Shown in pieces: positions 44,961 to 63,998 of a stretch of 64,000 nucleotides of DNA. The stretch's first letter is position 1, and the number at the start of each line of letters is the position of its first letter. The notes under the pieces are model-generated. The model made no database searches and was not told where the DNA came from. It saw only the letters and a list, made by a program, of their open reading frames with translations. Made by a program: the position numbers and the translations under genes. Origin of the DNA: Onthophagus taurus (taxonomy: Eukaryota > Arthropoda > Insecta > Coleoptera > Scarabaeidae); assembly GCF_036711975.1 (NCBI RefSeq), contig NC_091976.1, positions 4,836,001 to 4,900,000 of the forward strand, written 5' to 3'.

Positions 44961-45059
44961 CGGCCAAACCTTATTTACTACATGGCGTAAGGGACAGAAA
45001 ACAAATCCCCCGCACGGTCGCTTTGCCGAGTACGGCCGAAGAATCGAAGACTGGAGGGG

Positions 45060-46465: not shown

Positions 46466-47970
46466 ATGAAGGTGTTAGGTCAACCGGAAAGTAGTTTTGC
46501 GCAAAGACTGCGAATATGTGCTCTGGCCGAGTGGCCAGTGGTAAGTGAATTTGTCGGTAAGATTGAATAATTTTGAATATTATGATTATATAGTAAGCTT
46601 AATTCCGATTTTATCATCTACCAATTACAATTATTTTGACAATGTAAATACACAATAGTTTAACTTTTAATAAAATAATTTTGTGCTTTTGATCTGCCCA
46701 TCAATTTTGTTTTTAGAAGGCAATAAAATCTGTGTGAATTTGCAGTAAAATTTGCCCGATTTTAAATGAAACTTGGGTGTATTTTAAGGAGCTCTATAAT
46801 AATCATTTTGATTTGCCAAGAATAATGGAATACATTAATCAAAAGGGTTACTTGAATTATTTTTGAAAACATGAAATTCTTTGTGGTTCTATTTTTCGCT
46901 TTGTTGGTAGAGATGGACAGTAAACAAATGGATAAGGCGAGGCGCTTTGAATGGCGAGAGGGGTTTAAAGAGCACACGAGTAGTGCCAAGAAAAACAACT
47001 GCCGATGAAGATGAGCGAATTGTCAATTATGCTCGTATGCACCCAACTTGCCCATCAAGAGCTATCCGGCAGGAATTAATAGTCGACTGCTCCCTTCAAA
47101 CCATTCGAAACCGTTTAAACGAGAATGGTATTTTAAAGTAATACATAGAAAATAGCAGAAAGACTAAACAATTTTAATAATTTTAAAGGTTTGCGGGCTA
47201 GAATACCGGCAGAAAAAATTCAGCTGTCACCCCAGAATGCCCAGCACAGATTGAGATTTTGTGAAGAAAATATAAACCGGGATTGGCGAGGTGTCATATT
47301 TTCGGATGAAAAGACGTTTTTGTCATCCCAAAATTCGAAACAGCGAGTTTGGCGTCGTAGTGGGACGAGATATGACGCCGAAAATGTCGTTACGATGGCA
47401 ACCAGTGGACGAGTCTCACTTGGTAAGCTCTAGAACCTTGTAACTACTCTATGATGATGTTATCTGACGAATTACTACAATTACCACAATAACTGTTTAT
47501 CAGGTGTATGGGGTTGGATCAGAGATGCCGGGCCTGGAGCGTTGTTTAAAGTTTCGCCCCCAACATTTACTGCTCGGCATTATGTTGGGGTTTTGGAAGA
47601 AATTTTTATTCCAAGTGTGAGGGCAGTATATCCTGAGGATGAGGTGGAGGTTCTAACATTTGTACAAGACAACAGCCCCATCCATACCGCTCGGTTAGTC
47701 GAGGAGTGGTTTCAAGACAATAATAACGTAGAACGATTAAAATGGCCTCCACGCTCGCCCGATTTAAATCCCATTGAAGAGGTGTGGGGTTATATGGTAC
47801 GCGGGTGGGAATTTGACGAACGATTTCGGGACCGAGCTATTTTAGAAGAATACGTTATGCGGAAATGGGATAGTCTTCGTGGCGGGGATTTATGTCAGCG
47901 ATTGGTCGGCTCAATGACATCCCGATTAGAAGAATGTCAAAATAATAACGGGTTATACACCCATTATTAA
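46466..47970 (+). CDS. Spliced Tc1/mariner-type transposase, four exons, open
   Basis: Exons 46466-46540, 46911-47137, 47202-47422 and 47504-47970 join at GT-AG introns in phase to give about 329 residues without a stop. Exon 2 supplies the DNA-binding helix-turn-helix (RWTVNKWIRRGAL; VVPRKTTADEDERIVNYA). Catalytic residues are IFSDEKTF, FVQDNSPIHTAR and SPDLNPIEEVW; about 35 residues lie between the second Asp and the Glu. Tc1/mariner transposases usually lack introns, so three introns are unusual, though spliced members are known in some lineages. Introns are 370, 64 and 81 bp. The acceptor at 47201 was chosen because the nearer AG at 47188 gives a stop. Confidence 0.78.
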
Positions 47971-48239
47971 ATTTTGACATAACAAATTTTATTCATTATT
48001 AAGTAGGTATAATTTTTATTATTAAAGTGTTCTTAATATTTGATGAAATCTTTTTAATTTTTTCAATGCTGACCGACAAAACCAAGTGAGAAGAAACAAT
48101 AAGCGCATACCTGGCTGTGGTCCTCAAGACGAAAAAGATAAAACTCTTCATCCCGCGGGATGAAGAGTCCCTTCCAAAGCCGGTAAGTTGAGACAACCTT
48201 AATAAAATTAATATTAACCATCAATATTTTTTTTCTTGC
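47971..48239. other. 3' flank of the Tc1-like gene
   Basis: AT-rich. A CATCCCGCGGGATG palindrome lies at about 48150-48163, inside CTCTTCATCCCGCGGGATGA. No gene. Confidence 0.3.
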
Positions 48240-48435
48240 AATTGAATCCTGGATATAACGACTTCCGCAGAAATCCGGGTGGTCCGGGAGAAGAGAGGGG
48301 GGGTTTTTAGTGGATAGCAGGTGCTAATTAATTGTAGTCCCACACTCCCGGCCGAAATACGATTTTTCCGACCCACGAACTATAGGCGCCATCAGTAGGC
48401 CGGGGTGCGTAAGGCATTTTCCCCTCCTCTGCGCA

Positions 48436-48453
<18 letters not shown>
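48240..48453 (+). mobile_element. 3' tail of a non-LTR retrotransposon with poly(A)
   Basis: GC-richer segment with GGGTTTTTAGTGGATAGCAG and CCCACACTCCCGGCC, then CTCCTCTGCGC followed by about 19 A (48435-48453). This resembles the 3' untranslated end of R1/I-group LINEs. 5'-truncated to about 200 bp and abutting the right inverted-repeat arm. Confidence 0.55.
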
Positions 48454-48455
<2 letters not shown>

Positions 48456-48467
<12 letters not shown>

Positions 48468-49275
48468 ATAAAATGTTTTATTATTAATAAAATTTTCTTT
48501 GTAAATAAATGAATTATATACTCAAAATCAAATGGTTTTTCATTATAATATGGAATATTATCATGCTCATAAATAACAATCTATAAAATTCAGTTTACAG
48601 GTAGTTTCAACAGAAATTTTATATTACCTTATGTGAATAAGGTAATAAATTTTTTAACATTACTAAAGTGTACAAAAAATAAAAAGTTTATTGTTTACCC
48701 ATTTACGATGAAGGTGAGAAATTATTGTAAAATTTTAAGACTTATTACAAAAAAAATATATCAACTCAAGAAAAAAAAATTCGCAAAAGCCTTATGTCAA
48801 AAATACGCAAAAAAATGTGAAGAAACGGTGCGTAAACGCATTAATGGTCGTAAATGGCTTGAAATTATTGAGACTTTCTATAATATTAAACGGTTAAAAT
48901 GCCATTTTAAATGAGATTAGAAAAAAAATATTACTAATGGAAATTAAGAGACGATTTTTACATCGAATTTTAACTAAATTCTTTAACTTTACGAAGATAT
49001 ACAGTACAGAAACGTATTTAAAATTAAGAAACAATTTTTTTCACTTATTAAAGTTCAATTATTTTATTTTAATGAATATATTTGACTATTTTATGAATTT
49101 TTAAAATCGACTACGTCATAACATTGGTACAGTTATTTGAATTGTAAAAACGAAATTGTGTATTTTTGTTCGAATCCAAGGCGCGCTCGACTTTAAGCTG
49201 GCATAGGGCGCCCGGCACTTCAGGGTTGAAGAGACGACAAGGCTAGAGCAAAGGTTCGAGAGAAAATGAGTACGC
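48456..49275. repeat. Long inverted repeat, right arm (~820 bp)
   Basis: Mirror of 45060-45877, beginning in an (AT)n tract. It carries the plus-strand frame 48633-48914 homologous to the left-arm frame with two residue changes (LRLIT for LRLNT; MKVRNY for MTVRNY). The outer edge lies within exon 2 of the small spliced gene at 49243-49523. Confidence 0.85.
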
Positions 49276-49523
49276 TGATCCTCCGGGAACTGGCCCCCAA
49301 TAAAGGACATTACCCCCCTCACGGAGGATGATATCCTCTAATTCCTCCACCGACGTTATGAATACGGAGGGCTGTAAATTGAAAGGACTATGTATTATTA
49401 TTACAATTCGGAAGGAATAATGATCAATAAAATATCACTTACATTTTCACATACGAAAGAACAAATTGTAAAAATTATCCCAATCACATGATACGGTATC
49501 ATCGATAGCTGTATTGACGGCAT
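49243..49523 (-). CDS. Small spliced gene 1 of a variable-exon family (69 aa)
   Basis: Exon 1 49523-49443 (MPSIQLSMIPYHVIGIIFTI) and exon 2 49371-49243, joined at AAT|GTAAGT...TTTACAG|CCC in phase 0, ending at TAG. Exon 2 contains VLYWGPVPGGSAYSFS, which aligns with IIFCGPFYEGSLRIS and IIFCGPFLGGSSRIA of the two other members, and a preceding ITSVEELED block aligns with their TD region. No signal peptide is certain, though exon 1 is hydrophobic. Promoter TATATATAAAGAGGAT lies 50-65 bp upstream. Function unknown. Confidence 0.65.
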
Positions 49524-49555
49524 TTTAGAAAACAATGTAGCGCCGCTATGCAGCT

Positions 49556-49660
49556 TAAAAGCGCGTATATCCTCTTTATATATACTATGGGACATCGTTT
49601 ATGTAAATAGGTTTTTAATTAATGTCGATTGAAAGAAGCGTAGAAGTTTAAGCGTAGAAA
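49556..49660 (-). promoter_or_regulatory. TATA promoter unit of small spliced gene 1
   Basis: On the minus strand: AACTTCTACGCTTCTTTCAA, then TTTACATAAACGATG, CATAGTATATATAAAGAGGA, then TTTTAAGCTGCATAG before the ATG. The same ordered blocks occur at gene 2 (50253-50312, 50506-50525) and in a gene-less unit at 50530-50606. Confidence 0.6.
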
Positions 49661-49828
49661 AAAAAAACATATATATTAAGCAATAAAATATATATTTAAT
49701 AATAATAATAATAAAATATAAAATTAATTATCTAACTATATTTAATACTAAAATAAGATCATAAAATTAAACTTACTAAAATAAGATCATAAAATTAAAC
49801 TAAACTTAATAAATAAAAAATTTGATGA

Positions 49829-49882
49829 CTGAAAAAATTAAAATGTGAAATTATAAAAGTATATAAAAATCAATAACTTACC
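49829..49882 (-). other. Extra duplicate intron downstream of gene 2
   Basis: GTAAGTTATTGATTTTTATA...TTTTTTCAG, 54 bp, closely resembling gene 2 intron 2 (49925-49984). It follows a 42-bp exon-sized segment (49883-49924), so the intron-exon unit appears tandemly duplicated. Confidence 0.6.
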
Positions 49883-49901
49883 CAGACGCTTCTCAAAACA
49901 A

Positions 49902-50234
49902 TTACGCATTTGGGGGCAGCTTCACTGAAAAAGTAAAAATGTAAAATCCACTTTTTCAAAGTAAATAAAAAATCAATAACTTACAGCAGACGTAGAGCTT
50001 GTCGTCGTAGTGGGGGTCTCTCGATATTCGCAGCGACCCCTCATAAAAGGGGCCGCAAAAAATGATTTCCCACCCCCATATTTGCATTAGTGTCATTTGA
50101 GTGTCTGTCACTTCATGTATTATACACTGAAAATAATATAAAAATAAAATTTAAAATTAAACGAGTATGGAATTAATACTTACATTTTGCCATACGGCAT
50201 TGCACATATCTTGAACGAGTTGTGGTAAAGGCAT
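49902..50234 (-). CDS. Small spliced gene 2 of the variable-exon family (71 aa, three exons)
   Basis: Exons 50234-50184 (MPLPQLVQDMCNAVWQN), 50126-49985 and 49924-49902, with introns of 57 and 60 bp. Phase is kept and translation ends LPPNA-stop. Exon 2 holds TLMQIWGWEIIFCGPF and RISRDPHYDDKLYVC. Its two introns are about 90% and 93% identical to those of gene 3 (63.5-63.8 kb), whereas coding exons are only about 61-62% identical. A further intron-like copy (49829-49882) follows the stop, so alternative 3' exons are possible. No known family recognised. Confidence 0.7.
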
Positions 50235-50331
50235 TTTGTTAAGAAGAAGAAGAACTAGTTGAACTATGCGGCTTAAAGGCGCATTTATCCTCTTTATATA
50301 CTATGGAATACTGTTTATGCAAAGAGGTTAA

Positions 50332-50502
50332 CCCTTCCGCGTGGAGTGTCGTACACGTGTACGTCATGCATAAAATTATTTCTACTGCGGAAGATCACAT
50401 TAGAGTAGATAGCATAGAGTAGATCACACTCACACATCTCACGTAGATCGCACTCACGCATCTCACATAGTAATTGAATTTTTTAACTTCCACGCGGAAG
50501 GG
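50332..50502. mobile_element. 171-bp piggyBac-type MITE in the gene 2 promoter
   Basis: TTAA at 50328-50331 and 50503-50506. Ends CCCTTCCGCGTGGA and TCCACGCGGAAGGG are inverted repeats (one inner mismatch). Internal direct repeats of ACTCACRCATCTCAC and a GTACACGTGTAC palindrome. TTAA duplication identifies piggyBac-superfamily mobilisation; the ends differ from the 35-kb piggyBac. It splits the conserved upstream block of gene 2. Confidence 0.9.
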
Positions 50503-50529
50503 TTAAAAGAAGCGTAGAAGTTTTCCTAA

Positions 50530-50610
50530 TGATAATGTATAGAATACGGTTTATGTGAACAGGTTTCCATTATGTAATATCGATTGAAAGCGTAGAAGTT
50601 TTATTTACAA
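50530..50610 (-). promoter_or_regulatory. Third, gene-less copy of the small-gene upstream unit
   Basis: Contains AAAACTTCTACGCTTTCAAT and TTCACATAAACCGTATTCTA in the same order as the upstream regions of genes 1 and 2, but no TATA-proximal half or coding exon follows. It suggests a lost member of the array next to integrase. Confidence 0.5.
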
Positions 50611-50623
50611 AATAACATAAAAA

Positions 50624-51556
50624 TTAAACAATATTATCTTTAGAAATCCAACTGTTATGTGATGAATCGAATCCTAACCACTTAACGTACACTTTATTCT
50701 TTTTCCTTTTCAACACTTTTTCAACAAGATATACATCAGGTTGTTTTGATTTTTGAAGTTCAAATTCATAAAAAGCTCCTTTAATAGGCTGACCATCCAT
50801 ATCCTCTAATAAATAAGAAATTGGATTCGTAATTTGTCTTTTAACTATTTTAAATAATTCGGTGGTCCAGTTGGGTAAATATCCTTTATCGAAAACGTGT
50901 TTATGCTTGCTAATGCGAACTACATCTCCAATTTTAAAGTTTCCCTTACCAGCAATTTTAATATGATTGTACACCGTATTGAGAAGTTTATTTTCTATAG
51001 ATTTCGAATTTATTTGAAATGGCTTCATTTTCGTTGTTGAATGCTTTGAATTGTTATATTGAGTTGTAATAGTATCCAATAAATGTAGCCATTTATGATT
51101 TCCGTAAAGACTAAACATTTTATATAACTTTTGTTTTATGGTTCTAATTACACGTTCAGCTATTGAAGCCTTCATTACACTATAGGTTGAATAATGATTA
51201 ATTTTAAATTCCATCATCAACTTTTTAAAGTGAGTATTGTAAAATTCTTTTCCTTGATCTGTTTGTAGATTTTTAGGTAGACGACCTTCAGAGAGAATTG
51301 AACGTAACGCGTGTGTTACATCCGTTGAAGATTTATTTTTTAACGGTCGCATCCAGAGATACTTCGAAAAACAATCGATAACCACTAATATGTACTTATG
51401 TCCGGCATTGAATTTACCAAATTCAATCATTTCAATAAGATCAGCTTGCCATAAATCATCAATCCCCTTCAATATAGTTCTTCGTCTGGAAAATAAACGT
51501 CTAGCAGGCCGATGAAGTTCTTCAACTATAGTTTGTTTTGCTTTCGATACCTGCAT
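50624..51556 (-). CDS. Polinton retroviral-type integrase with chromodomain
   Basis: 310 residues, ATG 51556 (MQVSKAKQTIVEELHRPARR). rve catalytic core: first Asp in DLWQADLIEM, second in LQTDQGKEFYN, Glu in SIAERVIRTIK; 33 residues by my count between the last two. After the core an SH3-like segment (GNFKIGDVVRISKHK) and a C-terminal chromodomain (YLVEKVLKRKKNKVYVKWLG). It cuts and joins Polinton ends; the chromodomain may steer it to chromatin. The N-terminal HHCC zinc domain is absent or short. Frame intact, the only complete integrase in the window. Confidence 0.9.
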   Translation of the reverse strand: MQVSKAKQTIVEELHRPARRLFSRRRTILKGIDDLWQADLIEMIEFGKFNAGHKYILVVIDCFSKYLWMRPLKNKSSTDVTHALRSILSEGRLPKNLQTDQGKEFYNTHFKKLMMEFKINHYSTYSVMKASIAERVIRTIKQKLYKMFSLYGNHKWLHLLDTITTQYNNSKHSTTKMKPFQINSKSIENKLLNTVYNHIKIAGKGNFKIGDVVRISKHKHVFDKGYLPNWTTELFKIVKRQITNPISYLLEDMDGQPIKGAFYEFELQKSKQPDVYLVEKVLKRKKNKVYVKWLGFDSSHNSWISKDNIV

Positions 51557-51564
51557 TCTTACGC

Positions 51565-52135
51565 TTATGGATTAGGTACAACTTTTTTCTCTAATGCGTC
51601 TAGTCGGGAATTTATACTGTTTTCTGTATCAAGCATACGATTTGCAACATCCTGTATTCCATTCTGTAGATTGGTTGTGAGTATATCAATTGTATTTAAA
51701 TTAGAAATGAATGAACTTTTTAGAGCTGAAGTTTGCTGTTCGTTTAATAGGATTCCCGCGTTAATTTTTGTAATGTCTTCTTTTAAGTTTTTGCTCGATT
51801 CTATTGTAAGATCCTTGTAGAGACGATATATCCGATTGATTTAATTTAACTTTCGCTATTATGACGGCAATTTCGTTTAAGATTGTAGCTTTCAATTTTT
51901 CACAAATTTCATCTACGTAAATTTTTATCGCACAATCGTTTTCATCCGTCGGTTGTTGAACGTTAGTTAGTTTACGTCCCTGGATATCATAATCACCATC
52001 TATGGTTAAAGGTAAACCAATACTGCGTTGAAATGTAGTTATATTCTCATCACTCAAGAATCTATTCCGTGAAGAACGAAATGTACGACCAAACTTATCA
52101 ATGCTCACACTACTCACGCTTGACCCACTGTTCAT
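51565..52135 (-). pseudogene. Fiber-like coiled-coil Polinton protein, frameshifted
   Basis: ATG 52135. After a Ser-rich N-terminus comes GLPLTIDGDYDIQGRKLTNV and a heptad-rich region. Near 51815-51840 the frame shifts: the first frame stops at 51761 while the neighbouring one continues as a coiled coil (TINAGILL-type heptads, SSFISNLNTIDILTTNLQN) to a TAA at 51565. The DYD-x-GRKLTNV block recurs in insect Polinton proteins, and its stalk-like composition suggests a spike or fiber; inference. Confidence 0.55.
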
Positions 52136-52162
52136 TGGTATACATAAATTATTATTTTTTTA

Positions 52163-53109
52163 TTATGATATAACACCGCTCTCTTTCAGTTCTTCTATAA
52201 TAGATGTAATTTCATTGATATGGGAATTGTTTCCTGCCGCATGTGGCGCGTACAATAATCTTAATCGATCTACCAACTCATTAACATCATCCCAGTATTT
52301 ATACTCAACGATTTTCGAGTTCACTTCAAGATGTCTTCCGGATATTAATCTACCTCCTGATTTATTAGATGTAAATAAAGGTTTAATAATTTTAGTATAC
52401 TTGTACGATTTATTTCCAACAATTTGACCCGTAAAATTTCGCTTATGCGCACCCGTATACTCTAGAATCGATTTGTAACGTTGTAGATCTTCTTCAGTAT
52501 AATTTGTAGGTCGTTTTAACTGTATAAGTTCATATAACCCCGGAGTGTTTTGAATACGTTTTTCACCTCCAAGGATAATATGGGAAGGTTTAAATTGAAC
52601 AGTCTTCGATCCAATCATCCAATTGTTTTCATCAGCATCATAACGTATACCCATTCTCTCATCAATTTCTTCTCTTTTACCAAACGTATAATATAAATCC
52701 CGAATTTGTAACGGTAGATTTTCTATAGGTAAATCCTCCACTTTCAATTTTTGTTTTACATCCGGCGTTTTATATTCATCATCGCTTTCAGGAAATGTTA
52801 ATTTTTTCCTAAATCCTGGAGTTTTAAAATCAGTTTCATCAAATTTTTTTTTACGTCTACAGCAGTATCATCAGAATGTGGATAGTGGTGATGATAATGT
52901 ACAGAAGAAGATTTCGCGTCACTTAATTTATTAGTTATATCTTTCAATGAGTCGCTTAAAGGCTGATGGAGTTTAGCGATAAGACGATCATCGCTTTCTC
53001 GACCGAGTTTAAGCGCTAAATATTTTTTCTTAATAGTATTTGTTATGTTAATTATAGCTTTATCTCTTTCACGAATGGAACGCTTAGTCATTTCATCACC
53101 ATGTGACAT
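52163..53109 (-). pseudogene. DUF8207-like Polinton protein, copy C, homopolymer frameshift
   Basis: ATG 53109 (MSHGDEMTKRSIRERDKAII) opens a charged helical N-terminus; the C-terminal half (52747-52163) has FGKREEIDERMGIRYD, YTGAHKRNFTGQIVGN and YKYWDDVNELVDRLRLL. The two halves lie in different frames that exchange at a T9 tract (52844-52852), so a one-base length change accounts for the break. Function unknown. Always adjacent to integrase or ATPase in these elements. Confidence 0.75.
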
Positions 53110-53146
53110 GCTTACTTTCGTAAATACTAGATAACAATGTAATAAT

Positions 53147-53848
53147 TTAGTCTGGGTAAATATATTTATCCATTCCTATACGATACCTTCCATCTTTTAA
53201 TTCAAAATCTTTCATAATAATCATAGGGTTATATTTATCATCATTCCAACACCGTTTACAAGCTTCCTTCAAAACATTAAACTTCATATCGGTGTTAACG
53301 TGTTCATCATACACATGTTTTAAATTAATCTCATCCTGTTTGAATAGAATTAGGACGTTTGCGTTGTCTCGAATTAGGTGTTTAGGTATTCGTGTATAGG
53401 TTTGCGTAAGATAGAACGAATCAATATTTTTATGTCGCCCCATACAGAAAAATGATCGAATCTTATCCTGCTTATCACATGCTACATCATCAAATATGAA
53501 AATTGAGTTTTGTTTAGCTTCAGATGGATCTATAACTGTATCATTATCCGTAAATCGATAAAATCCTATTTCCGGTAATTGTTTCATAATCATCTCTAAA
53601 AATTTATATTTCGGTTGATGTAAGGATTTTGAGTATAGATAAATATTTTCAAAAGTTAAACCGTTTTTATCGAAAATGAGATTTAACATCAAATTGGTTT
53701 TCCCACATCCGCTCGGACCGCACACTATTGCTCGTATACTGTTCGGTATGAGGTCACCATGTCTACGTGTTGTTATCATCTTCGTCATTATCAGCCGATC
53801 GAGATCGGTTAATGACATTGTGACAGATGGATGCTGCACTACACGCAT
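53147..53848 (-). CDS. FtsK/HerA-type packaging ATPase (copy C)
   Basis: Likely start MRVVQHPSVTMSLTDLDRL at 53848, another ATG lies at 53878. Walker A CGPSGCGKTN, Walker B FIFDDVACD, then FYLTQTYTRIPKHLIRDNAN. The C-terminus ends IGMDKYIYPD. Complete frame of about 234 residues; the best-preserved ATPase in the window. It diverges from the PLA2 gene with about 80 bp between starts. Confidence 0.88.
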   Translation of the reverse strand: MRVVQHPSVTMSLTDLDRLIMTKMITTRRHGDLIPNSIRAIVCGPSGCGKTNLMLNLIFDKNGLTFENIYLYSKSLHQPKYKFLEMIMKQLPEIGFYRFTDNDTVIDPSEAKQNSIFIFDDVACDKQDKIRSFFCMGRHKNIDSFYLTQTYTRIPKHLIRDNANVLILFKQDEINLKHVYDEHVNTDMKFNVLKEACKRCWNDDKYNPMIIMKDFELKDGRYRIGMDKYIYPD

Positions 53849-53929
53849 TGTGGTATTAAAATGAGTTTTAATCTTCATGTACAGATACTATATAATAGAT
53901 GTGAAAACATAAATTATACTTAGTTGAGT

Positions 53930-54038
53930 ATGTTGTTCATTCGAGATAGTACATCTACGACAGTGGAAGGAAACGGAATACTTAATACACTTATCAATAA
54001 ACTACCCGTTGAGTTACACGTTCCAGGTTATCAATTTT
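53930..54038 (+). pseudogene. PLA2-like virion protein stub (copy C)
   Basis: ATG 53930; contains GILNTLINKLPVELHVPGYQ, matching the start of copy B PLA2. It stops just before the calcium loop, where LINE sequence begins, so neither active-site motif remains. Confidence 0.75.
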
Positions 54039-54039
54039 C

Positions 54040-56285
54040 TTAAAACACCAGATAACTTAGTTAAAAATATTAAGAGGCTATATGAAAAACACTCCGTTAT
54101 GATAGACGGGAATATAGCGAATCGCAAGCCACTCTACTGGTGGAATGAGAACATAGCCAGGAAAAGAAAATAATGTAATAAAATAAGAAGAAAACTAACA
54201 CGGTGCAGGGGCGACAACCGTGGAAACTTGGAAGAGATCGAAAATCTGAAATCAAAACATAAAATAGCTAGAAAGGAACTAAGAAAGCTAATAGGGAAAA
54301 GCAAAAAAGATAAATGGATAGAGTTATGTGCGGAGCTGGAAAGCGACATTTGGGGAAAAGCTTACCAAATAATAACCAAGAAGCTAAAGCTGAAACCTAG
54401 AACTAATATAGACCCGGAAAAAGTGGAAGAACAAATTAAAAAATTGTTTCCGGAACATGAAAGATTCGAATGGGAGACCAATGATAGATCTATAGAAATA
54501 CAGCCTTTTACGGAAGAGGAGTTGTTAGCCGTTGTGTCAAAAATAAAGAAAAAGAAAGCCCCGGGACCGGATGGTATACCGGCCGAACTATTAAAAGTGC
54601 TAATACCTAAATATACAAAAGAAGTCCTAGAAACCTACAACGGTTGCATATCCACAGGAATCTTTCCAAAAATATGGAAAAAAGCAAAACTGGTTTTAAT
54701 AGAAAAGCCAAAAAAATCGGGGTTGACCGCTACATACAGACCAATCTGTCTTATAGACACAACAGGGAAGATACTGGAAGGCTTATTGAGGGAAAGGTTG
54801 CAGGCGGAAGCCGATAATAAAGGACTATTGCACGAAAATCAATATGGTTATAGGAAAGGGAGGTCAACAGTACAAGCCATCGCAAGAGTGCAGAAAATAG
54901 TTGATGACATAAAACAAAAAGCGTTGAATAACAGAGAAGTCTGTGCGTTGGTCCTCCTAGATATAAAGAACGCTTTTAACTCCGTACCATGGAGGGAAAT
55001 AATAACTGCGATGGAGATAGGAAATGTCAGTCCATACTTGATCGAAATGGTGAAAGCGTATCTCTCTGATAGAAACATAATTTCCTCTGATGGAAAGATC
55101 TACAGAGTTTCTTGCGGTGTACCACAGGGATCTTTATTGGGTCCACTGCTGTGGAATTTGTACTACGACCGGATTTTAAGAATGGAACTAGAATCTGGAG
55201 TGAATCTCATAGCGTACGCGGACGACCTCGCTCTTGTTGTAAAGGGTGCAGATGCGAGACAGCTGGAAGATAAGGCTACTTACGCTGTTCAACGAGTGGT
55301 TACAAAATTGAAGGCGATGGGATTGAACATCGCTTCCCAAAAAACGGAATTAGTGCTACTGCAGGGGCGACGAAAGCTAACAACTCTTAACCTGTTAGTT
55401 GACGGAACTGAGATTCACAGTTTAGATAAAGTTAAATATTTGGGAGTATATCTTAATAAGGATATGACTATGACAAAACATGTAATCCAGATAACAACCA
55501 AGGCAATCTACATGTGCAACCTTATACTAAGGCTGATGCCGAGAATGGGGGGTCCGAGGTCGAGAAAAAGAAAGTTACTTTCTACAGCAGTGACCTCGGC
55601 AATTTTGTACGCTGCACCAACGTGGCAAAGATGCCTGAAATACAAGCGTTTCCAGAACATGCTAACCATGGTAAACAGAAGACTAGCGATAGGCATTACG
55701 GCGGCATATCGTAGGGTTCGAGCAGAAAGTATTGAGGTCATAGCGGGTCTACCTCCCATAGACCTTGTGGTACAAGAAAGGTCAGAACTATATAAAGGGG
55801 GAAAGGAATTAAAGACGCAATGTAAAGAAAGGACTATGCCTGCTTGGCAGTTAAGATGGACAAACCAGGACAGCTGGACAAGGACATTAATACCGAAAAT
55901 AGAACCATGGACCACGAGAAGCTGGGGCGAGGTGGATTACTATCTCACTCAAGCGCTCACAGGACATGGGGTGTTTAAAAAATACCTATGTAAAATCAAG
56001 AAGTCGGAGTCCGAAGATTGTTGGTTCTGCGAAAATGTCGACACAGCTGAGCACACTGTTTTTGTGCGATGAATTCAATAGACAAAGATTTGAATGTGAA
56101 AGAAAATGTAGAGTGAAATTGAATAGAAACAACATGGTCACAATAATGCTAGAGAGCGAAGAAAATTGGAACGTAGTTAATGAAATGGTAACCAAAATAA
56201 TGAAGATAAAAGAAACACACGAAAGGGAACTTGAAAAGAGAAGACAGGAAGAGGAGAGGGTGCGTTAGGCAGAAGGAGTTAGTAA
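54040..56285 (+). mobile_element. R1/LOA-like LINE, 5'-truncated, inside Polinton C
   Basis: Starts within the linker between endonuclease and RT (ANRKPLYWWNENIARKRK) and ends soon after the zinc knuckle region. It sits between the PLA2 stub and a 5'-truncated penton, with a deletion of the intervening Polinton genes. No poly(A) or target duplication was seen at its right end, so deletion or recombination after insertion is likely. Confidence 0.75.
54228..56272 (+). pseudogene. R1-like reverse transcriptase
   Basis: RT domain about residues 100-380: KKKKAPGPDGIPAELL, TYRPICLIDTTGKILE, YGYRKGRSTVQAI, LLDIKNAFNSVPW, CGVPQGSLLGPLLWNL and intact active site AYADDLALVV. A C-terminal CWFCENVDTAEH is the CCHC-type knuckle. 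A frameshift near 56050 moves to a frame reading CDEFNRQRFECERK to 56268. No endonuclease domain is present; another frameshift precedes 54228. Not able to move by itself. Confidence 0.85.
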
Positions 56286-57000
56286 CGAAATAGATCCTAA
56301 CTCAAGTTACTCACTTGGTCTTATTGGATTCTATACGTATAACAGTATACCAAACATTGAACGAGGAGTTATTGACAAATTCTATTTTACCGAAAAATTT
56401 CCAATAAACAAAAGTCGACAAGCGGTTATAACTTCGGCGGGACCATTAACAGAAGATGAAATCAAAATTCCTACTGGTGCATATGAAATAACGGACATTG
56501 AACTTTATTTGCAAAAAGAGATTTTACATCGTATCGGATTAAATACAGTTGATGACCCTGAAACATTTTTTTCACTTAAGGCTAACAATAATACCTTACA
56601 ATGTGAAATAAAAAGCGATTATTTTGAGATAGATTTCTCTACACCGAACACAATAGCTTCGATATTGGGGTTTTCCAATCGCAAACTAGATGTATCGATA
56701 AAGCATAAATCAGATCTTCCGGTAAATATAATACGTGTAACATCCGTTCGAGTGGAATGTAATATAATTTCTGGTTCGTATTACAATAATAAATTATCAC
56801 ACACCTTATATGAATTCGCTCCAACCGTAGATCCAGGTTTCAGTATAAATATAGAGCCAAGGAACCCCATTTATTTACCAGTCGACACCGATCGTCCGAT
56901 ATCGAACATTACACTAAAATTACTTGATCAGCGTGGTAAATTGGTTAACTTTCGCAGAGAAGAAATAGTTATTAGATTAGAGCTGAAACGAACTTCATAA
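56286..57000 (+). pseudogene. Polinton penton protein, copy C, N-terminus lost
   Basis: Begins within the N-terminal half (YSLGLIGFYTYNSIPNI) right after LINE sequence. It is then open through KIPTGAYEITDIELYLQKEI and LKANNNTLQCEI to VIRLELKRTS-stop at 57000. It carries a sense codon where copy B has TGA. The single jelly-roll half (56509-57000) is complete. The stop overlaps the next ATG (TAATG). Confidence 0.8.
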
Positions 57001-57206
57001 TGGGGCTGTTGTTCCAATTAAAAACTGACCCTCAAACGCAATCATCATCTATCAAAAGAAAACATTATAACTCAGCTGGAAAGAAAACGTTTAGAACAGT
57101 TAACAGAAAGACTTCATTGCGAGCGGACAACAGACGTTTCCTCAAGCATTCAGGTTATCATGTCCACACAAAAGTTAAATATATACCGCGAACCCATCGT
57201 AGATAA
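57000..57206 (+). CDS. Small basic Polinton protein (copy C)
   Basis: 68 residues (MGLLFQLKTDPQTQSSSIKR), Lys/Arg-rich, sharing KTFRTVNRKTSLRADNRRF with copy B. It overlaps the penton stop by one base and the capsid start by 47 bp. Conserved overlaps in both copies support a real gene. Probably a virion component; function unknown. Confidence 0.65.
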   Translation: MGLLFQLKTDPQTQSSSIKRKHYNSAGKKTFRTVNRKTSLRADNRRFLKHSGYHVHTKVKYIPRTHRR

Positions 57207-58392
57207 TTCGATTGCCAGAGAAGAAGTGCATAGTTATCATCCATCTACAAATTCTTTTCAAAACAACGATATATTCACCATTGAGCTGAACCAAGAAGAT
57301 GTTCTATTTTCATTCTTCGAAAGTTATATACGTATTGAGGGGGATTATAAAGAAAAATTAAACGATCCAACTGATACCATCCAATTGACACACAACTTAC
57401 CAACATTTCTATTTGAGTATATCGCATTTGAGCATAATGGTACTGAAATCGAACGGGTACGTGAACCGGGTTTAACATCCCTCATTCGAACCCTACTTCA
57501 GCAAAACGAAGTGGAATGTAAATCTTTAGAAATAGCTGGTTTAAAATGGCCACCCGAAGGAAATTTACCCACAGTGAGTGCGAACAAGGATTTTATGTTT
57601 CAAATTCCTTTAAGTCATATTTTCCGATTATTTAGAGACTATAATCACGTTATGAGAGGTCGCTTTAAATTTAGATTTGTTAGAAGTCGTACTGACTCCA
57701 ATTGTTATAAATCCACATCAAAAGCTGATCCTAGCACCGCAGAGTTTACCGTAAAAACGGTTACATTGTTAGCGAAACATGTGTACCCCAGCCCATCGAT
57801 AAAGATGAAGCTATTGGATGGTTTAAATAAAAATTCAAACATTCCTGTACCGTTTCGGAAATGGTCTTTTTATGAGCTACCTTCTATGAGAAAGGGAAAT
57901 AAGGAGATTTGGCCGGTCACGTCAACAACTAACAGAGGTAGACCTCAATATGTTATAGTCGCATTCCAAACCAATCGAAAGGATCAGCCGACTTCTGATT
58001 GTACACTTTTCGATCACTTGAACATTATAGATCTTAAAGTATATCTAAACTCATACTGCTATCCGTTCGAGTCGATGAATTTGGAGTTTGCAAAAAAAAA
58101 TTATGTTGAACTATATAAAATGTTTACTGAATTTCAACCGTATATTTGGGAAACATCTCGAAAACAACCGATTATGGATTTCACAAGCTTTAAAAAGAGA
58201 CCTTTATTCGTGGTGGATACCACTAATAATAACGATGAAGAAGCCGCTCCGTCCGCATCATGTGAGGTGCGTATCGAAATTCAAAGCAGTAAAGATTTTC
58301 CACCTGATACAAAAGCATACTGTATACTACATCAAGAATCCATGTACACATACAAACCTTTGAGTGGTGAGGTATCTATAATTATAAATTAA
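57160..58392 (+). CDS. Polinton major capsid protein (copy C)
   Basis: 410 residues, ATG 57160 (MSTQKLNIYREPIVDNSIAR), uninterrupted. Conserved blocks: NDIFTIELNQEDVLFSFFES, FLFEYIAFEHNGTEIERV, MRGRFKFRFVRSRTDSN, STTNRGRPQYVIVAFQTNRK, and a C-terminal YKPLSGEVSIIIN. Length and synteny next to the penton fit the Polinton major capsid (double jelly-roll) family; the fold is inferred and could be tested by structure prediction. The only complete capsid gene here. Confidence 0.75.
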   Translation: MSTQKLNIYREPIVDNSIAREEVHSYHPSTNSFQNNDIFTIELNQEDVLFSFFESYIRIEGDYKEKLNDPTDTIQLTHNLPTFLFEYIAFEHNGTEIERVREPGLTSLIRTLLQQNEVECKSLEIAGLKWPPEGNLPTVSANKDFMFQIPLSHIFRLFRDYNHVMRGRFKFRFVRSRTDSNCYKSTSKADPSTAEFTVKTVTLLAKHVYPSPSIKMKLLDGLNKNSNIPVPFRKWSFYELPSMRKGNKEIWPVTSTTNRGRPQYVIVAFQTNRKDQPTSDCTLFDHLNIIDLKVYLNSYCYPFESMNLEFAKKNYVELYKMFTEFQPYIWETSRKQPIMDFTSFKKRPLFVVDTTNNNDEEAAPSASCEVRIEIQSSKDFPPDTKAYCILHQESMYTYKPLSGEVSIIIN

Positions 58393-58473
58393 ATTCCAAC
58401 ATGAGTTTGGGTGGGGAGGTATCTATAAATGAATAAATTCCAACATGAGTTCATATTCATATTAGATTTCAAT

Positions 58474-58971
58474 ATGACGTTCAGAAGTGCGGTTGTAGAC
58501 GTTCAAGGGTTTGACGTCAACTCTAAATTCGAAGTTAAGGAATTTACTCTTCTGGATATCACCAACACCGACTACACTATACATTTACACCTTAAGCCTA
58601 GTATACCATTTCAACGATTAAATGTTCAAGATCGGAAGACAGTAAGATATTTGGAACGCAACCATCACAGGTTGTTATATAACGATGGGTGGATAAATCA
58701 ATCTGATGGTCTAAATGTAATTGATCACTTAATTTCCTCCTACGATCAAATTTTTGTTAAGGGGAATCAAAAGAAGCAGTTTTTGGAAACACATAACCAT
58801 AATAAATCAATAATAACGGATATCGCATTAGAATTTGCGGAAGAGGATGAGACTAAATTAAATTCAACCTCCAATCATTGTTGGTTTCATATTGGCTCTC
58901 CAGCAGTATGTTCACAGAACAATGTTTTAATTTTAAAAAAAATTTTATGTAAACAAAATAAAGTTACTTGA
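58474..58971 (+). CDS. Conserved Polinton protein, possible RNase-H-like nuclease (copy C)
   Basis: 165 residues, ATG 58474 (MTFRSAVVDVQGFDVNSKFE). Homologous along its length to 29290-29868, including RYLERNHHRLLY and the terminal CWFHIGSPAVCSQNN. It lacks the Arg/Tyr repeat seen in copy B. The conserved Asp near the start (DVQGF) and a later Asp leave room for a nuclease; not established. Located between capsid and MMP. Confidence 0.6.
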   Translation: MTFRSAVVDVQGFDVNSKFEVKEFTLLDITNTDYTIHLHLKPSIPFQRLNVQDRKTVRYLERNHHRLLYNDGWINQSDGLNVIDHLISSYDQIFVKGNQKKQFLETHNHNKSIITDIALEFAEEDETKLNSTSNHCWFHIGSPAVCSQNNVLILKKILCKQNKVT

Positions 58972-59088
58972 ATTGTAAATAAATTTTTAGAAAGTTGGTT
59001 GTAGTTTTATAATAATAATCAACACCCAATTCACATTTAATCATTTAGTTGTAAACTATCATACAGTGTGGACGTAAAGTCACGAATC

Positions 59089-60697
59089 ATGAAAGCAATA
59101 ACTATTTTTCTTTGGACTTGTATGTTGACACATACATTGGGAACGATAAGTGAACGTGATGAAGAAATTTATATGCTTCTCGATAAATATGGGTATATCG
59201 AACGAGAAACTAATGTGAGTCAAAGTGATTTAAATGCGGACCAACTAAGCTTATTGAAGAAAGGTATATCTCGCTTTCAAAAATCATTTAATCTTCCAGT
59301 GACCGGTAAAATAGACTTTAGAACCGTAGATTTACTTGGTAAGCCTAGATGTGGTAATGAAGATTCTTTCGACTTTCTGAAATCAAGCGATCAAAACCGA
59401 AAATGGAGTTCATTAAATATTAAATGGGGTATATACGGTGATTATCATCCAAACGGTTTTACCGCGATTGTGCAAAAAGCGTTTAACATTTGGTCTAACC
59501 ACGTCAGTTTACATTTTAGGAGAGTAATATCAGACGCTAACATTTTGATCGCTTTTAAATCGGGTAAACATGGAATTATTAGAAATGATAAAGCATCATG
59601 TTTAGGTCGCTTCGATGGTATGGGAGGAATCCTTGCGCACGCCGACTACCCTGACATTTACAAAAACGCAATTGAAATTCATTTAGACAAAGACGAGGAT
59701 TGGGATTTAACTAATACTGCATTGGCAGGCAAAACTAATCTATTCCTAGTTCTGGTACATGAAATACAGCACGCATTAGGATTAGATCATAGTAATGAGT
59801 TTGATTCTATCATGTTTCCCAGTTATGGATTCGTTCATATTGAAAATTTCACATTAAGTCAGAATGATATTCATGCGATACAGAAAATTTATGGGAATTC
59901 AACTTCAGCACATAAAGTATCTACTACTACTACTACGTTAAAACCTACACCCAAAATTGAAACTACATCCCATGAAACTATAGCTCCCTTCACCTTATCT
60001 CACATCTGCGATATTGATGATAAGTTTTCAGGATTTTTAATATATAAAAAAGTAATTTATATACTTTATAAACAATGGGTTTGACCAATTGATTTAAAAT
60101 CTAAAATGCCAACTCGTTCCACACCTATAAACATTGTTGATTGGTAAAAGCCTTTGAGAGGTGTTTTAGAAGCTACGAATTATAATTATAAGGTTTCCTT
60201 TGGTTCTAATGGTAACCTTATAGTTATTATAAATCATTCAATTTATATAATTGAAATTAGGAGTATGTCGATACGTCACAAATGGGATTTTGAAGCAACT
60301 GGTTTGGGATTTAACAATCAATTTAACAAATACTAATATTACAGGAGTTGTGATAAGTAATTATGGTTCACCTTTTATATTCTTCGATGAGATCTATGCT
60401 GTTCAAGTGGATTATCAATATTTTAAAACACGGCAACTTATGACGTCAGTTGCTGCTGAGTTTCCAGGGATACCGGGTTACTTTGATGGTGTTTATAAAT
60501 CTTCAGATGGTTTATTGAATTTTTTTGTTGGTAATAAAATAATTCGATACAATGATTATTTAAAAGAGACTGTGGATACCGTAGATAAAAGCCTATCAAT
60601 ATTAGGTATATCTTGTCCCTATACATCTATATTAGATCAACTAAAATTTCTATTATCAAAAATAAGTTCAACATCTAAAATATCTGCACCTTGGTAA
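59089..60697 (+). pseudogene. Matrix metalloproteinase carried by Polinton C
   Basis: ATG 59089 starts a signal peptide (MKAITIFLWTCMLTHTLG). The propeptide has the peptidoglycan-binding-like helix block and a cysteine switch PRCGNED. The catalytic domain has the zinc site HEIQHALGLDH and Met-turn DSIMFP. A Thr/Pro hinge follows (STTTTTLKPTPK). Hemopexin-like repeats begin at HICDIDDKF, but the frame ends at 60084. Later repeat codons lie in other frames (60154-60336, 60251-60697), with the C-terminal Cys in ILGISCPY. The peptidase part is open; the hemopexin part has at least two breaks. Probably a captured host gene that cleaved extracellular matrix. Confidence 0.85.
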
Positions 60698-60815
60698 AGT
60701 TGTAAAATTTGTATAATTTTAAAATCTAAATCCCCCACTCCTATTTAATATTAGATATAGGGTACATGTTTATGTGTAAATTTCATTTTAATTAGTATAT
60801 AACATGCTCTGAAAC

Positions 60816-61331
60816 ATGAGTGTCAACGGTGTAAGTTTAGATTTTTGGGGATTAATTGACAAACTGTGGGTAAAATTCAAAGAGGATCTAAAGAAAGAAA
60901 TTAAACTTATTGATGAAAGTGTATTTTCTGCAGGTGAATTTAACATTAAAGTTGGTATTAGTGTTGTTAGAGGCTCTATACCTTGCGTAGAGTTAATTTT
61001 TAAATCGTGTAATGATGAGTTAAACAAAATTTGTCTCCAGCATGAAGATTGGGATCATTTAATTTATATATTCAAGCAATTTTACTTCAACAAGGAGGTG
61101 ATTTTAAGTTACACAATACCTTTAGCAGAAGGAATTTTAAATATTACCCGCGTGAGTGAGGACGTACTATGTATTAGATGTGAAGACTTCGATGTTGATG
61201 GAAATTTGAGAACCTCTTTGTTACCTATTGTAATTACCATGTCAGAAGTTCATTATATTTTATATTTAGATTGTTTAATTTCATATAGATTAAGTATATT
61301 AAATAAATATCATGTTAAAAATCTCATTTAA
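60816..61331 (+). CDS. 171-residue conserved Polinton protein (copy C)
   Basis: ATG 60816 (MSVNGVSLDFWGLIDKLWVK), intact to 61331. Mixed alpha/beta composition with FNIKVGISVVRGSIPCVELI, ICLQHEDWDHLIYIFKQFYF and VLCIRCEDFDVDGNLRTSLL. No signal, membrane span or enzyme motif seen. Nearly identical to copy A, much more so than PolB next door, hinting at recent exchange or strong constraint. I do not recognise a family. Confidence 0.7.
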   Translation: MSVNGVSLDFWGLIDKLWVKFKEDLKKEIKLIDESVFSAGEFNIKVGISVVRGSIPCVELIFKSCNDELNKICLQHEDWDHLIYIFKQFYFNKEVILSYTIPLAEGILNITRVSEDVLCIRCEDFDVDGNLRTSLLPIVITMSEVHYILYLDCLISYRLSILNKYHVKNLI

Positions 61332-61686
61332 ATAAATTTATTTTAATTTAAAATATTTTATTTTTTTTTTTTATATTTCACAAATAACGCTAACTTACGT
61401 AAACAACTTTGGAATTTATGTGACGACTTTAAATATTACCTTTGCTTTGATAAATGAATATTTAAAACGCAAATAACCTCGGTAAATTCCCTCACCCTAT
61501 TGACTTTCAATTCAATTTAGTAATTACTTTAAGCAATCACAGTGCTCGTTTGCGAGTTGTGTAACGCAAATAACCTCAGTAAATCCCCACCCAGGAACAA
61601 CAACAGCTTTCACTTTGAGTATTGATAATAACACGTAGATTCGCGACATTCAATTCACTTTAGTAATAACTTCAAACGAATTCACA
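61332..61686 (+). promoter_or_regulatory. PolB upstream region (copy C) with TTACGTAA motif
   Basis: CGCTAACTTACGTAAACAAC at 61388-61407 is the same motif, same orientation toward PolB, as in copy A. Two copies of AACGCAAATAACCTC follow at about 61468 and 61563. Flanking words (TTTGCTTTGATAAATGAATA) also match copy A upstream of PolB. No TATA box is obvious. Confidence 0.55.
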
Positions 61687-62895
61687 ATGTTCGTTTGCGA
61701 GTTATGTCAAAAATCTTATACGTTAAAAAATAATCTCAATCGTCACGTACGGAATGTACATAAGATCGTACTCAACAAAGTCAAAACATTTTTACGAAAC
61801 GATAATCTAATTAAACATAAACGAAAAGTACATAAGATTATTGTAGAATCTCGTCAATCGTCATCTCCACCTCTTACGATGGAACAATTATCATCGTTAT
61901 CGCTACCATCAACTTCTTCTTCAACACCAGCTCAACGTTTATCAACATCTTTATCGAGAGCGTGTAAGATTTGTGGTGAGTCCTTTACATCATTTTTCAC
62001 TTTACAAACACATCTTCGCACAAATTATACAACAACTATTGAGAATGGCGTGGAAAAGATTGCATCATGTTTTAAGAATCGGGTTGTCAGCTATAAAATT
62101 AGTAAAGTTCAACCAGATGATGATATATCTTCCTATCTCACACGATTGCGAGAAACGGTCATTACACTTATTAACAACCAAATTACATTAAGTGGATCAG
62201 TTAAAATACAAATTGAACTACTATCTAATTTTATAAAATTTGATAATGATGAAGCAGATATGAAAGATGAAGAAGAAGATAAGGTAGTGTCTGAAAAAAA
62301 TTTTAATACGAAATTTAAAATCATAACAACAGCTACAATTTTGGAAGAGATTTACGATGAGATGATGGGGGATATTATAACTCAAGCGGAAGAGTTCCAG
62401 GAACGTGGTTCCGGTTGGGCATTTCACTCAATTTCTCATCTTTTACTAAACATAAATAAATTCCAACCGATACCTAGTTCATCGTACATACGTCTACCGG
62501 AAGAGATTGCAAATAAACATGCGTGTGTCAACATAAAAAATTATGAAGATGATGCGTGTTTGGCATGGTGTCTGACGGCAGCCCTTCATCCTGCGAATAG
62601 ACATTCAGAGCAAATATCTAGCTACCCACATTACAGTCAGGTTTTAAACCTACAAGGTATTCATTTTCCAATTAATTTAAAAGATATAGTTAAAATTGAA
62701 AAATTAAATGGTATAAGCATTAATGTCTATGAATTAGTTTATAGGTCAAAAAAATATTTGGTGGAAGGACCGATTTATTACACGAAAAATCGATGTGATA
62801 CTCACGTAAATTTACTCTATTTATACGACATGGGACGGGCTCATTTCGTTTTAATAAAAAATATATCTAGACTAATTTCCAAACAAATTGGGTGA
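61687..62895 (+). pseudogene. Polinton DNA polymerase B, N-terminal leader only (copy C)
   Basis: ATG 61687 (MFVCELCQKSYTLKNNLNRH), C2H2 fingers, CKICGESFTSFFTLQTHL, a Ser-rich linker, then EFQERGSGWAFHSISHLLLN, NIKNYEDDACLAWCLTAALHP and FVLIKNISRLISK, the arthropod PolB leader. A TGA at about 62893-62895 ends it exactly where similarity to copy A stops; exonuclease and polymerase domains are absent. The 5' end lacks the frameshift seen in copy A. Confidence 0.8.
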
Positions 62896-63317
62896 ACATG
62901 AAGAGTGTGTTGATAACGAAAATCTATTGTGCATTGAATTGGAAACATTTAAGTTTAGATTACCTCACAGAATTCACTGTGTCCTATTCAGGGATCCAGT
63001 ATTGTACAGGTAAATTAAAAAACATTAAATAAAGTGTGATGTAATTTTTATAAAACCTTAGGGATGATTTATTCTTCCAATCGTTTGGTTATACAGGTGG
63101 GGTATTGTGTGTATGGGTTACGTATATCGAAACAGAACGTAGTCGTGTATGTGAAGAGTGTTTCGAGGATTATAATGATCTTGTTATACGGGAACGACGC
63201 TTTTTTGAAAATACAGAATTTAAAGAAATGGAAAAAGATGTAAGACTACATCATACAAGAATTGTTAAATCTGAATTTATAGATTTAATAAAACGGGTTG
63301 ATATACTAATGTATTGA
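62893..63317 (+). CDS. Unrecognised spliced Cys-containing protein
   Basis: After the PolB break a frame reads EHEECVDNENLLCIELETFK and HCVLFRDPVLY to about 63009. A plausible intron (AG|GTAAAT at 63009 to CTTAG|GG near 63061) joins it in frame to FQSFGYTGGVLCVWVTYIET, VCEECFEDYNDLVIRERRFF and a stop at 63317. Cys pairs (C..C) might bind metal. No start codon is clear and the upstream end may be missing. Both exons are free of stops over about 115 codons. No family recognised. Confidence 0.4.
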
Positions 63318-63401
63318 AAATACATTAGTATGGTATTTGTTTTTTTTTAAATATATTTAGTAGGAATGCATTTATGGTATTTTAAAAATTGGGATACATT
63401 T

Positions 63402-63433
63402 GTTAGGTATCTCATGTATCTCATGTATCTCAT
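63402..63433. repeat. GTATCTCAT short tandem repeat
   Basis: About three and a half copies of a 9-mer (GTATCTCAT) just upstream of the TATA box of small spliced gene 3. Confidence 0.7.
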
Positions 63434-63439
63434 ACCGAA

Positions 63440-63515
63440 TAGTGTATGTATATATAAATACGAGCGACGCGTTTTCTAACATACAGCTGATTTCATATTC
63501 CGAAACAAAAAAAAA
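63440..63515 (+). promoter_or_regulatory. TATA promoter of small spliced gene 3
   Basis: GTATGTATATATAAATACGA at about 63443-63462, then GCGACGCGTTTTCTAACATA and a CAG-rich leader. Spacing from TATA to exon 1 resembles genes 1 and 2. Confidence 0.5.
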
Positions 63516-63828
63516 ATAAGTTTACCGGCTTTAGTTTTTCAAATATGCGAAGCGATATGGAAAAATGTAAGTATTAATTTCATACTTGTTTAATTTTTAA
63601 TTTACTTTTATATTATTTTCAGCCTGACGTGCATATTATAACCGATTATTTTATGACCTTACTTCAAATATGGCAATGGGACATTATATTTTGCGGCCCA
63701 TTCTTAGGGGGATCCTCGCGAATAGCAAGGGATCCTGACTTTAATAATCTACTTTACGTCTGCTGTAAGTTATTGATTTTTTATTTACTTTTAAAAAAGT
63801 GGATTTTACATTTTCACTTTTTTCAGGA
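63516..63828 (+). pseudogene. Small spliced gene 3 of the variable-exon family (start codon lost)
   Basis: Exon 1 63516-63566 (51 nt, same length as gene 2 exon 1), intron 63567-63622, exon 2 63623-63764 (142 nt, identical length to gene 2 exon 2), intron 63765-63826, then an immediate TGA formed across the last splice. The position of the gene 2 ATG is ATA here. Exon 2 reads MTLLQIWQWDIIFCGPFLGG and RIARDPDFN. Exons match gene 2 at about 61-62% of bases by hand count, introns at about 90-93%. Orientation mirrors genes 1 and 2 at the other end of copy C. Confidence 0.65.
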
Positions 63829-63838
63829 GCCATAAAGG

Positions 63839-63874
63839 CTTATGGCTGCCTTTAATTCTAAAGGCAGCCATAAG
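63839..63874. repeat. 36-bp perfect palindrome
   Basis: CTTATGGCTGCCTTTA, 4-base ATTC loop, then the exact complement. It lies at the junction between small gene 3 and a Tc1/mariner transposase end. It would form a 16-bp stem hairpin. Confidence 0.9.
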
Positions 63875-63998
63875 ACAACAAATTGCCGCAATTCCCCAAG
63901 AAATGGTTCATCGGGTAATGACGCGCTTCCGTGAACACCTACAAGAGTGCATCGACAATAATGGCCGTCATTTAAAAGATATCATTTTTAAAAAATAA
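63870..63998 (+). pseudogene. C-terminal end of DD41D-like Tc1/mariner transposase
   Basis: Reads IRQQIAAIPQEMVHRVMTRF then NNGRHLKDIIFKK-stop, the typical end of the same transposase family whose N-terminal 90% is at 26772-27720. The rest is missing here. The window ends 2 bases after the stop, so any terminal repeat is out of view. Confidence 0.7.

Follow-up and report, generated by a model that had tools for sequence, protein, structure and literature searches.

Slowly Changing Introns in Small Spliced Genes at the Ends of a Polinton from Onthophagus taurus

Introduction

Introns are normally the freest-changing DNA of a gene. At the two ends of a Polinton, a virus-like element, in the genome of the beetle Onthophagus taurus, this order is reversed: two small genes, here termed genes 2 and 3, are far more alike in their introns than in their exons, and gene 1, of a second type, lies beside gene 2. 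What could hold the introns of such genes still while their exons change? The stretch of DNA that raises this question (C11:4836001-4900000, 64,000 nucleotides; hereafter the window) had been given an initial annotation from its letters, in which the contrast was put down either to diversifying selection on the protein or to end-to-end gene conversion that homogenizes flanks and introns. We have followed up these proposals across 290.8 Mb of the genome in 33 contigs, where other loci bear copy labels such as 4109, 4312, 4055, 4073, 4070, 3220, 4327, and C8_13830. The observation is confirmed and its interpretation is partly supported. As detailed below, we tentatively favor the view that the introns of these genes hold fixed signals, most likely for the control of splicing, and that the encoded proteins are under purifying selection.

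Gene Structure and Genomic Copies

Genes 2 and 3 (Table 1) indeed share exon lengths of 51 and 142 nt, and the matches originally counted by hand, 31/51 in exon 1 and 88/142 in exon 2, prove exact in an ungapped alignment, with 28/47 residues of the exon 2 product identical. The introns, all four of which read GTAAGT...CAG, match at 52/56 with one gap (intron 1) and at 58/60 with two gaps (intron 2), and the 110-nt flanks are unalignable (48/109 and 23/49, with 122 gap columns). The contrast between exons and introns is therefore real. The exon lengths of the original gene models stand, but other parts of them do not. At 63516, gene 3 reads ATA in place of the ATG of gene 2, and a repeat interrupts it after intron 2, the first repeat base falling within 63827-63859; in view of these two features, we take gene 3 to be a probable dead copy. 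Gene 1 breaks off at 49276, where an inverted-repeat element (45059-49275) has its outer end and other copies continue, and roughly 0.7 kb of Polinton sequence present in other copies (L027 932-1621) was not found left of that element. Gene 2, for its part, has a third intron-like stretch. The small two-intron family does lie at both ends of the Polinton: genes of the gene 1 and gene 2 types sit beside the integrase at the left end, and the right end carries gene 3, which is of the gene 2 type, together with a newly recognized gene 1-type copy just outside the window (C11:4900239-4900425).

Protein searches of the genome, which are independent of the introns, found 13 gene 2-type loci, the same total with either of two queries. 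Both conserved introns are present at 12 of the 13, and the remaining locus, on C8, consists of part of exon 2 and intron 2 only. DNA searches returned the same 13 loci plus two decayed or fragmentary places, one at C11:4910743 and one on C6, where the exons are barely recognizable and intron 1 differs from that of gene 3 at 1/56 positions plus a gap. Intron patterns searched with up to three mismatches, in line with what the initial annotation had proposed, fell on family copies: 13 genome places for intron 1; 11 family places for intron 2, along with three three-mismatch places that were not inspected; and, in a further intron pattern search, 11 places within the family only. Reversed controls gave 0 each time. 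A 21-base core pattern was discarded as too short for specificity (53+63 matches vs. 42+49 in controls). Copies with introns diverging as fast as their exons, which the initial annotation had singled out as evidence against its observation, were not found in the gene 2 type.

Loci of the gene 1 type are more numerous: 29 (30 rows) on C11, C10, and C8 in the protein search and one more on C1 found by DNA. Four of these loci were missed by DNA and added by protein (C8:13830760, C8:20515988, C11:11557021, and C11:11578339; two whole, one rearranged, and one partial). Of 18 stretches compared, 17 contain intron 1, and rates were computed from the eight that retain an open frame together with both introns. 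Left out were the window copy (truncated), 4312, 4919b, 3884, C8b, 4058, and C1 (broken frame or deletion), 11580 and C10_13745 (protein the same as C10_13740), 4900 (no intron 1 match), and near-identical C11 copies. Intact copies have an exon 1 of 63-81 nt, intron 1 of 66-79 nt, exon 2 of 139-148 nt, intron 2 of 52-59 nt, and a short last exon. Splicing opens the frame in all eight copies of the rate set, one of which (4126) has no ATG at the position used, and yields similar protein ends (FTPQ five times; CTPQ, FIPH, and FTPL once each); if intron 2 is retained, the frame enters intron-coded residues. Gene P, the next gene inward from gene 3, occurs in tandem whole and partial copies at C11:11577221-11579954 and C10:13739071-13747110, beside copies of the gene 1 type.

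The proteins themselves belong to no family recognized in the libraries searched, in line with the initial annotation. No match was found in Pfam at E 1 or in the protein database with a word-limited search, the best PHROG and PDB hits had E 0.21 and 0.93, and none of 46 pattern matches in viral contigs was confirmed. AlphaFold2 models of exon 2 from two sequences (pLDDT 63.6, pTM 0.34) were set aside.

Evolutionary Rates

Genes 2 and 3 differ by 0.389 nonsynonymous (dN) and 2.258 synonymous (dS) substitutions per site (NG86). Copies 4109 and 4312, whose introns are identical at 54/57 and 58/60 positions, differ by a dN of 0.068 and a dS of 0.824 by the same method. Diversifying selection is not supported as the cause of the deep contrast between exons and introns: among six deep pairs of the gene 2 type, dN/dS is 0.08-0.25 in the five for which dS is finite (it is infinite in the sixth), and gene 1-type deep pairs have a dN of 0.24-0.46 with a dS from 0.59 to beyond saturation. 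For nine gene 2-type copies on one tree, of which three are pseudogenes, tree length is 0.531 at codon positions 1+2, 1.898 at position 3, and 0.116 in introns. The eight gene 1-type copies give 0.947 and 3.591 for the corresponding codon positions, 0.331 for intron 1, and 0.305 for intron 2. Introns have thus changed at about 1/16 (gene 2 type) and 1/11 (gene 1 type) of the rate of third positions, and more slowly than codon positions 1+2 as well.

This constraint reaches into the body of the introns. Across five gene 2-type lineages, intron positions 8-30 show 10/230 and 4/220 pairwise differences vs. 274/640 at third positions. In intron 1 of five gene 1-type lineages, constraint is patchy, with alignment columns 8-30 varying at 18/214, columns 31-47 at 10/162, columns 48-56 at 17/46, and the last 18 at 21/180. 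The intron 2 core of the gene 1 type, GAATATTAATCATAATTAA, is exact in 4/7 rows, has one change in two, and has an insertion and changes in one. Between the window and 4312, the spacer differs at 30/99 positions and the introns at 5/117, and the TATA unit is kept alongside the introns (0.97 identity in its 30-nt bin).

Common Descent and Recent Exchange

For the gene 1 type, maximum-likelihood trees of introns and exons have one topology. For the gene 2 type, the two trees share their deep order, 4312 followed by 4055/4073 with gene 3, and disagree only on the placement of 4109, among intron branches of zero length. Approximately unbiased test values against the exon tree (0.016 and 0.0002) are invalid, as the log-likelihoods of both trees lie within 0.001, and the topologies alone were used. 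Because the trees agree, introns have travelled with their exons, and there is no need to invoke intron-only conversion or homing. The other early proposal, that flanks and introns are converted together from end to end, is not supported, given unalignable flanks and agreeing trees.

Between closely related elements, gene 2 exons show more differences than the rest of the stretch: 4/193 vs. 11/2057 for window-3220 (Fisher p 0.034), 8/193 vs. 14/1133 for 4109-4070 (p 0.009), and 20/193 vs. 34/1895 for window-4109 (p 1.5e-8), where the p values are uncorrected and post hoc for regions picked after looking. The background counts, and they alone, are touched by a gene 1 intron/exon 2 border set 5 bases off and a third intron-like stretch set 2 off at each end. 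In window-4109, both site classes are raised (gene 2 dS 0.179 and dN 0.097; integrase dS 0.039 and dN 0.011), and no excess is seen in exon 3 (1/45) or its 3' stretch (1/49). Element 4327 (L030, C11:4325500-4330000) is a mosaic Polinton end: its gene 2 surroundings differ from those of 4109 at 0/86, 0/123, and 0/45 positions, its integrase is 24/573 off both the window and 4109, and a different gene 1-type gene is present. It is therefore likely that end cassettes have been exchanged, which, given slow introns, can explain the exon excess of close pairs, although true exon acceleration may occur in them. The gene 1-type copies C8_20515 and C8_13830 (L094 C8:20515630 and L093 C8:13830400) have a dN of 0.048 and a dS of 0.030 (7.5 nonsynonymous and 1.5 synonymous differences), and are the sole pair here with dN above dS besides gene 1 of the window vs. 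4109 (2 nonsynonymous, 0 synonymous).

The Polinton and Its Other Genes

The element bounded by genes 2 and 3 encodes the retrovirus-type integrase of a Polinton/Maverick (rve, E 1.5e-13 with Pfam profiles), a packaging ATPase (Pox_A32 profile match, E 2.3e-7), and a double jelly-roll capsid protein (DJR-like, E 3.7e-58). In a profile search, its open reading frame (ORF) at 61687-62895 gave zinc-finger matches only. A fragment of polymerase B (DNA_pol_B_2, 16903-17559) lies in the neighboring element, where an adenovirus-type protease was sought and 32107-32628 matched no Pfam family at E 0.01. As to terminal inverted repeats, the feature observed is a tandem-repeat end region at 44027-44957, which is common to other copies. 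Within this virus-like element stands the matrixin-type metalloprotease gene of Table 1, and a full-text literature search found no paper on a metalloproteinase in an insect Polinton. A reverse transcriptase ORF of 614 aa (RVT_1, 54228-56072, plus strand) also lies inside the Polinton. Blocks of 92-96% identity join 23532-24730 and 60330-61370 of the two Polintons, the remaining matching blocks being 75-84% identical; either recent exchange or a common insertion would produce this.

Table 1. Coordinates of the small genes and associated features in the window.
Feature	Position	Strand	Remarks
Gene 1 exon 1	49443..49523	-	27 codons
Gene 1 intron 1	49372..49442	-	71 nt; 5' core conserved
Gene 1 exon 2	49277..49371	-	truncated
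TATA unit of gene 1	49556..49588	-	26/33
Gene 2 exon 1	50184..50234	-	51 nt, ATG, 17 codons; counterpart in 12 copies
Gene 2 intron 1	50127..50183	-	57 nt, conserved
Gene 2 exon 2	49985..50126	-	142 nt, 47 codons, GPFYEGS core
Gene 2 intron 2	49925..49984	-	60 nt, conserved; both splice sites paired in predicted fold
Gene 2 exon 3	49902..49924	-	coding end and stop
Third intron-like stretch	49829..49881	-	in 3' untranslated part of gene 2; resembles intron 2
TATA unit of gene 2	50274..50306	-	32/33
Gene 3 exon 1	63516..63566	+	51 nt, opens with ATA
Gene 3 intron 1	63567..63622	+	56 nt
Gene 3 exon 2	63623..63764	+	142 nt
Gene 3 intron 2	63765..63826	+	62 nt; same predicted fold as gene 2 intron 2
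Repeat in place of gene 3 exon 3	63859..63900	+	42 nt, exact at three other places (C8, C7, C6)
Control intron in gene P	63010..63061	+	next gene inward from gene 3
Polinton integrase	50624..51556	-	rve core; chromo just below cut-off; adjoins gene 2
Matrixin-type metalloprotease ORF	59068..60084	+	intact-looking; PF00413 E 6e-37, plus PG_binding_1 stretch
Inverted-repeat element	45059..49275		840-nt arms, 99% alike; 4.2 kb overall, 2.5-kb middle

What Holds the Introns

Our tentative explanation builds on gene models drawn from a conserved frame, on the rates, on trees that agree, and on local conserved cores. The ends of this Polinton lineage carry cassettes of two-intron genes with products of about 65-80 aa, kept over the long term by ordinary purifying selection, with synonymous sites near saturation. 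The introns have been inherited with the exons and have changed at a rate about 3- to 16-fold below that of synonymous or third positions, which would be due to fixed sequence signals held within them. These signals most likely act on splicing, which would itself be regulated. We favor splicing control because constraint extends in part beyond the splice signals in two unlike sets of introns that share a gene architecture, because removal of intron 2 gives the gene 1 type a common C-terminal end, and because intron 2 of the gene 2 type has a predicted fold in which its 5' splice site and its pyrimidine tract are both paired. That fold is better than those of shuffled sequences in gene 2 (z -4.15), gene 3 (z -2.90), and copy 4055 (z -3.14). 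Removal of intron 2 would join exon 2 to a short, stop-bearing last exon, and with both of its splice sites pairable, production of the full gene 2-type protein might be restricted to particular cells or stages. It is possible, if rather doubtful, that a virus-like element here employs short introns as conserved switches, the elements of both introns being no less constrained than the proteins; diverging tiny effector proteins would then stay under the same splicing-based control. That these proteins interact with the host or counter its defenses, as initially suggested, is a guess.

Several observations weigh against this explanation. All splice sites are predicted from sequence. In the divergent, protein-found gene 1-type copy C8_13830, intron 1 differs from those of five lineages at 14/71 to 21/74 positions (0.20-0.28) and intron 2 at 8/55 to 12/50. 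With proportions of synonymous and nonsynonymous differences at 0.69-0.81 and 0.28-0.38, respectively, its intron divergence falls below the former and near the latter. Its intron 1 core is tighter: over the first 32 bases, four comparisons show differences at 2/32 or 3/32, and the remaining one, with 4 nt deleted, at 14/32 without gaps. Protein-found divergent copies thus keep only tight cores, and since a DNA search favors copies with conserved introns, DNA-found sets make the gene 1 type look more conserved than it is. In gene P, whose 10 copies include two with frame damage, the control intron has a tree length of 0.51 vs. 1.42 at third positions, a 2.8-fold difference, and slow introns may therefore be partly general to Polinton introns, the small genes being the extreme. 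Nor is RNA structure the common cause of the constraint, to judge from the predicted folds: intron 2 of the gene 2 type folds weakly in copy 4312 (z -0.61) and has a two-sided change in only 1/17 pairs, neither intron 1 of the gene 2 type (z 0.31, -0.55) nor the introns of the gene 1 type (z 0.61, 0.19) have a predicted fold beyond shuffles, and RNAalifold gives zero consensus pairs for gene 1-type intron 1.

The main rival is that the conserved intron sequences are DNA elements, parts of an intronic enhancer or promoter that act with the TATA unit on transcription. Conservation of the TATA unit together with the introns and the position of the intron 1 cores, which sit partly away from splice signals, give this idea a real though clearly smaller chance. 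Against it, the sequences are fixed in strand and position within introns, and the pattern searches recognized no free-standing copy at up to three mismatches, the three uninspected intron 2 places aside. That the introns instead encode small functional RNAs, as in inside-out genes, would suit their length (52-81 nt) and their being more conserved than the exons, but it is improbable, as the exons are under purifying selection, three of the four intron classes have no fold (gene 2-type intron 2 being the exception), and no intron within positions 49000-64000 of the window matches Rfam at E<=1; two matches far under the gathering score lie at 54892-55172.

Might the exons be fast rather than the introns slow? 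Diversifying selection on exons, with introns near neutral, could draw on the exon excess of the three close pairs and on the dN of C8_20515 vs. C8_13830, but we consider it unlikely given that synonymous sites are also raised in window-4109, that deep dN/dS is far under 1, that the spacer outpaces the introns in one pair, and that exchange of end cassettes, as in the mosaic 4327, can yield the same excess. We attach an equally low probability to the idea that exons are accelerated in every site class, as might follow if they evade host small-RNA silencing of mature mRNA, and that introns are ordinary: a close-pair excess in both site classes is what it predicts, but the spacer and the variable stretch of gene 1-type intron 1 also diverge fast, and exon 3 and its 3' stretch have no excess in window-4109. 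Least credible of all is homogenization of introns among copies by gene conversion or reverse splicing (homing), for although identity changes sharply at the start of exon 2, intron trees match exon trees (completely for the gene 1 type and in their deep branching for the gene 2 type), and flanks are not homogenized. A coding gene family of this kind makes it possible to test intron-borne control in a Polinton on a small scale. These genes also form a terminal Polinton gene family of which no description was found among the titles and abstract openings listed in the literature searches made, a result that does not establish absence from print.

Comparable Systems

Among virus-derived genes, the cys-motif genes of polydnaviruses are small and have introns more alike than their exons. 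Their products are cysteine-rich secreted proteins, unlike those described here. Mobile introns (introners) were rejected as an explanation, since at up to three mismatches no same intron was recognized in unrelated genes; the three uninspected places and the escape of more diverged copies limit that search. In the parts consulted, a paper on ant venom genes (PMC10800049) contains no clear statement of intron over exon conservation. With Polintons/Mavericks (adintovirus-like), the element shares an rve-core integrase, an ATPase of the A32 type, and a double jelly-roll capsid protein, and it is set apart by its terminal cassettes of tiny spliced genes and its matrixin-type metalloprotease.

A parallel in appearance is found in the three-finger toxin genes of viperids, for which accelerated segment switch in exons (ASSET) is described, with intron segments >85% identical and some exon segments that differ (PMC2474615). 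Those genes likewise have two introns and three exons, and their mature products are of 64-68 residues (PMC2474615). However, exon segments are replaced in the toxins, whereas the exons here align ungapped, are under purifying selection, and contrast with introns whose constraint is the main driver; switching of the ASSET type was accordingly rejected for genes 2 and 3, in view of their ungapped exons and shared exon 2 residues. The short introns of Drosophila resemble those of the small genes in being short, GT-AG, and AT-rich, and their positions 8-30 are treated as a proxy for neutral evolution (PMC10946897). In the Polinton genes, positions 8-30 are conserved to the same degree as the remaining intron sequence. 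Short introns are a usual neutral yardstick in Drosophila, and introns that change more slowly than codon positions 1+2 invert that rule.

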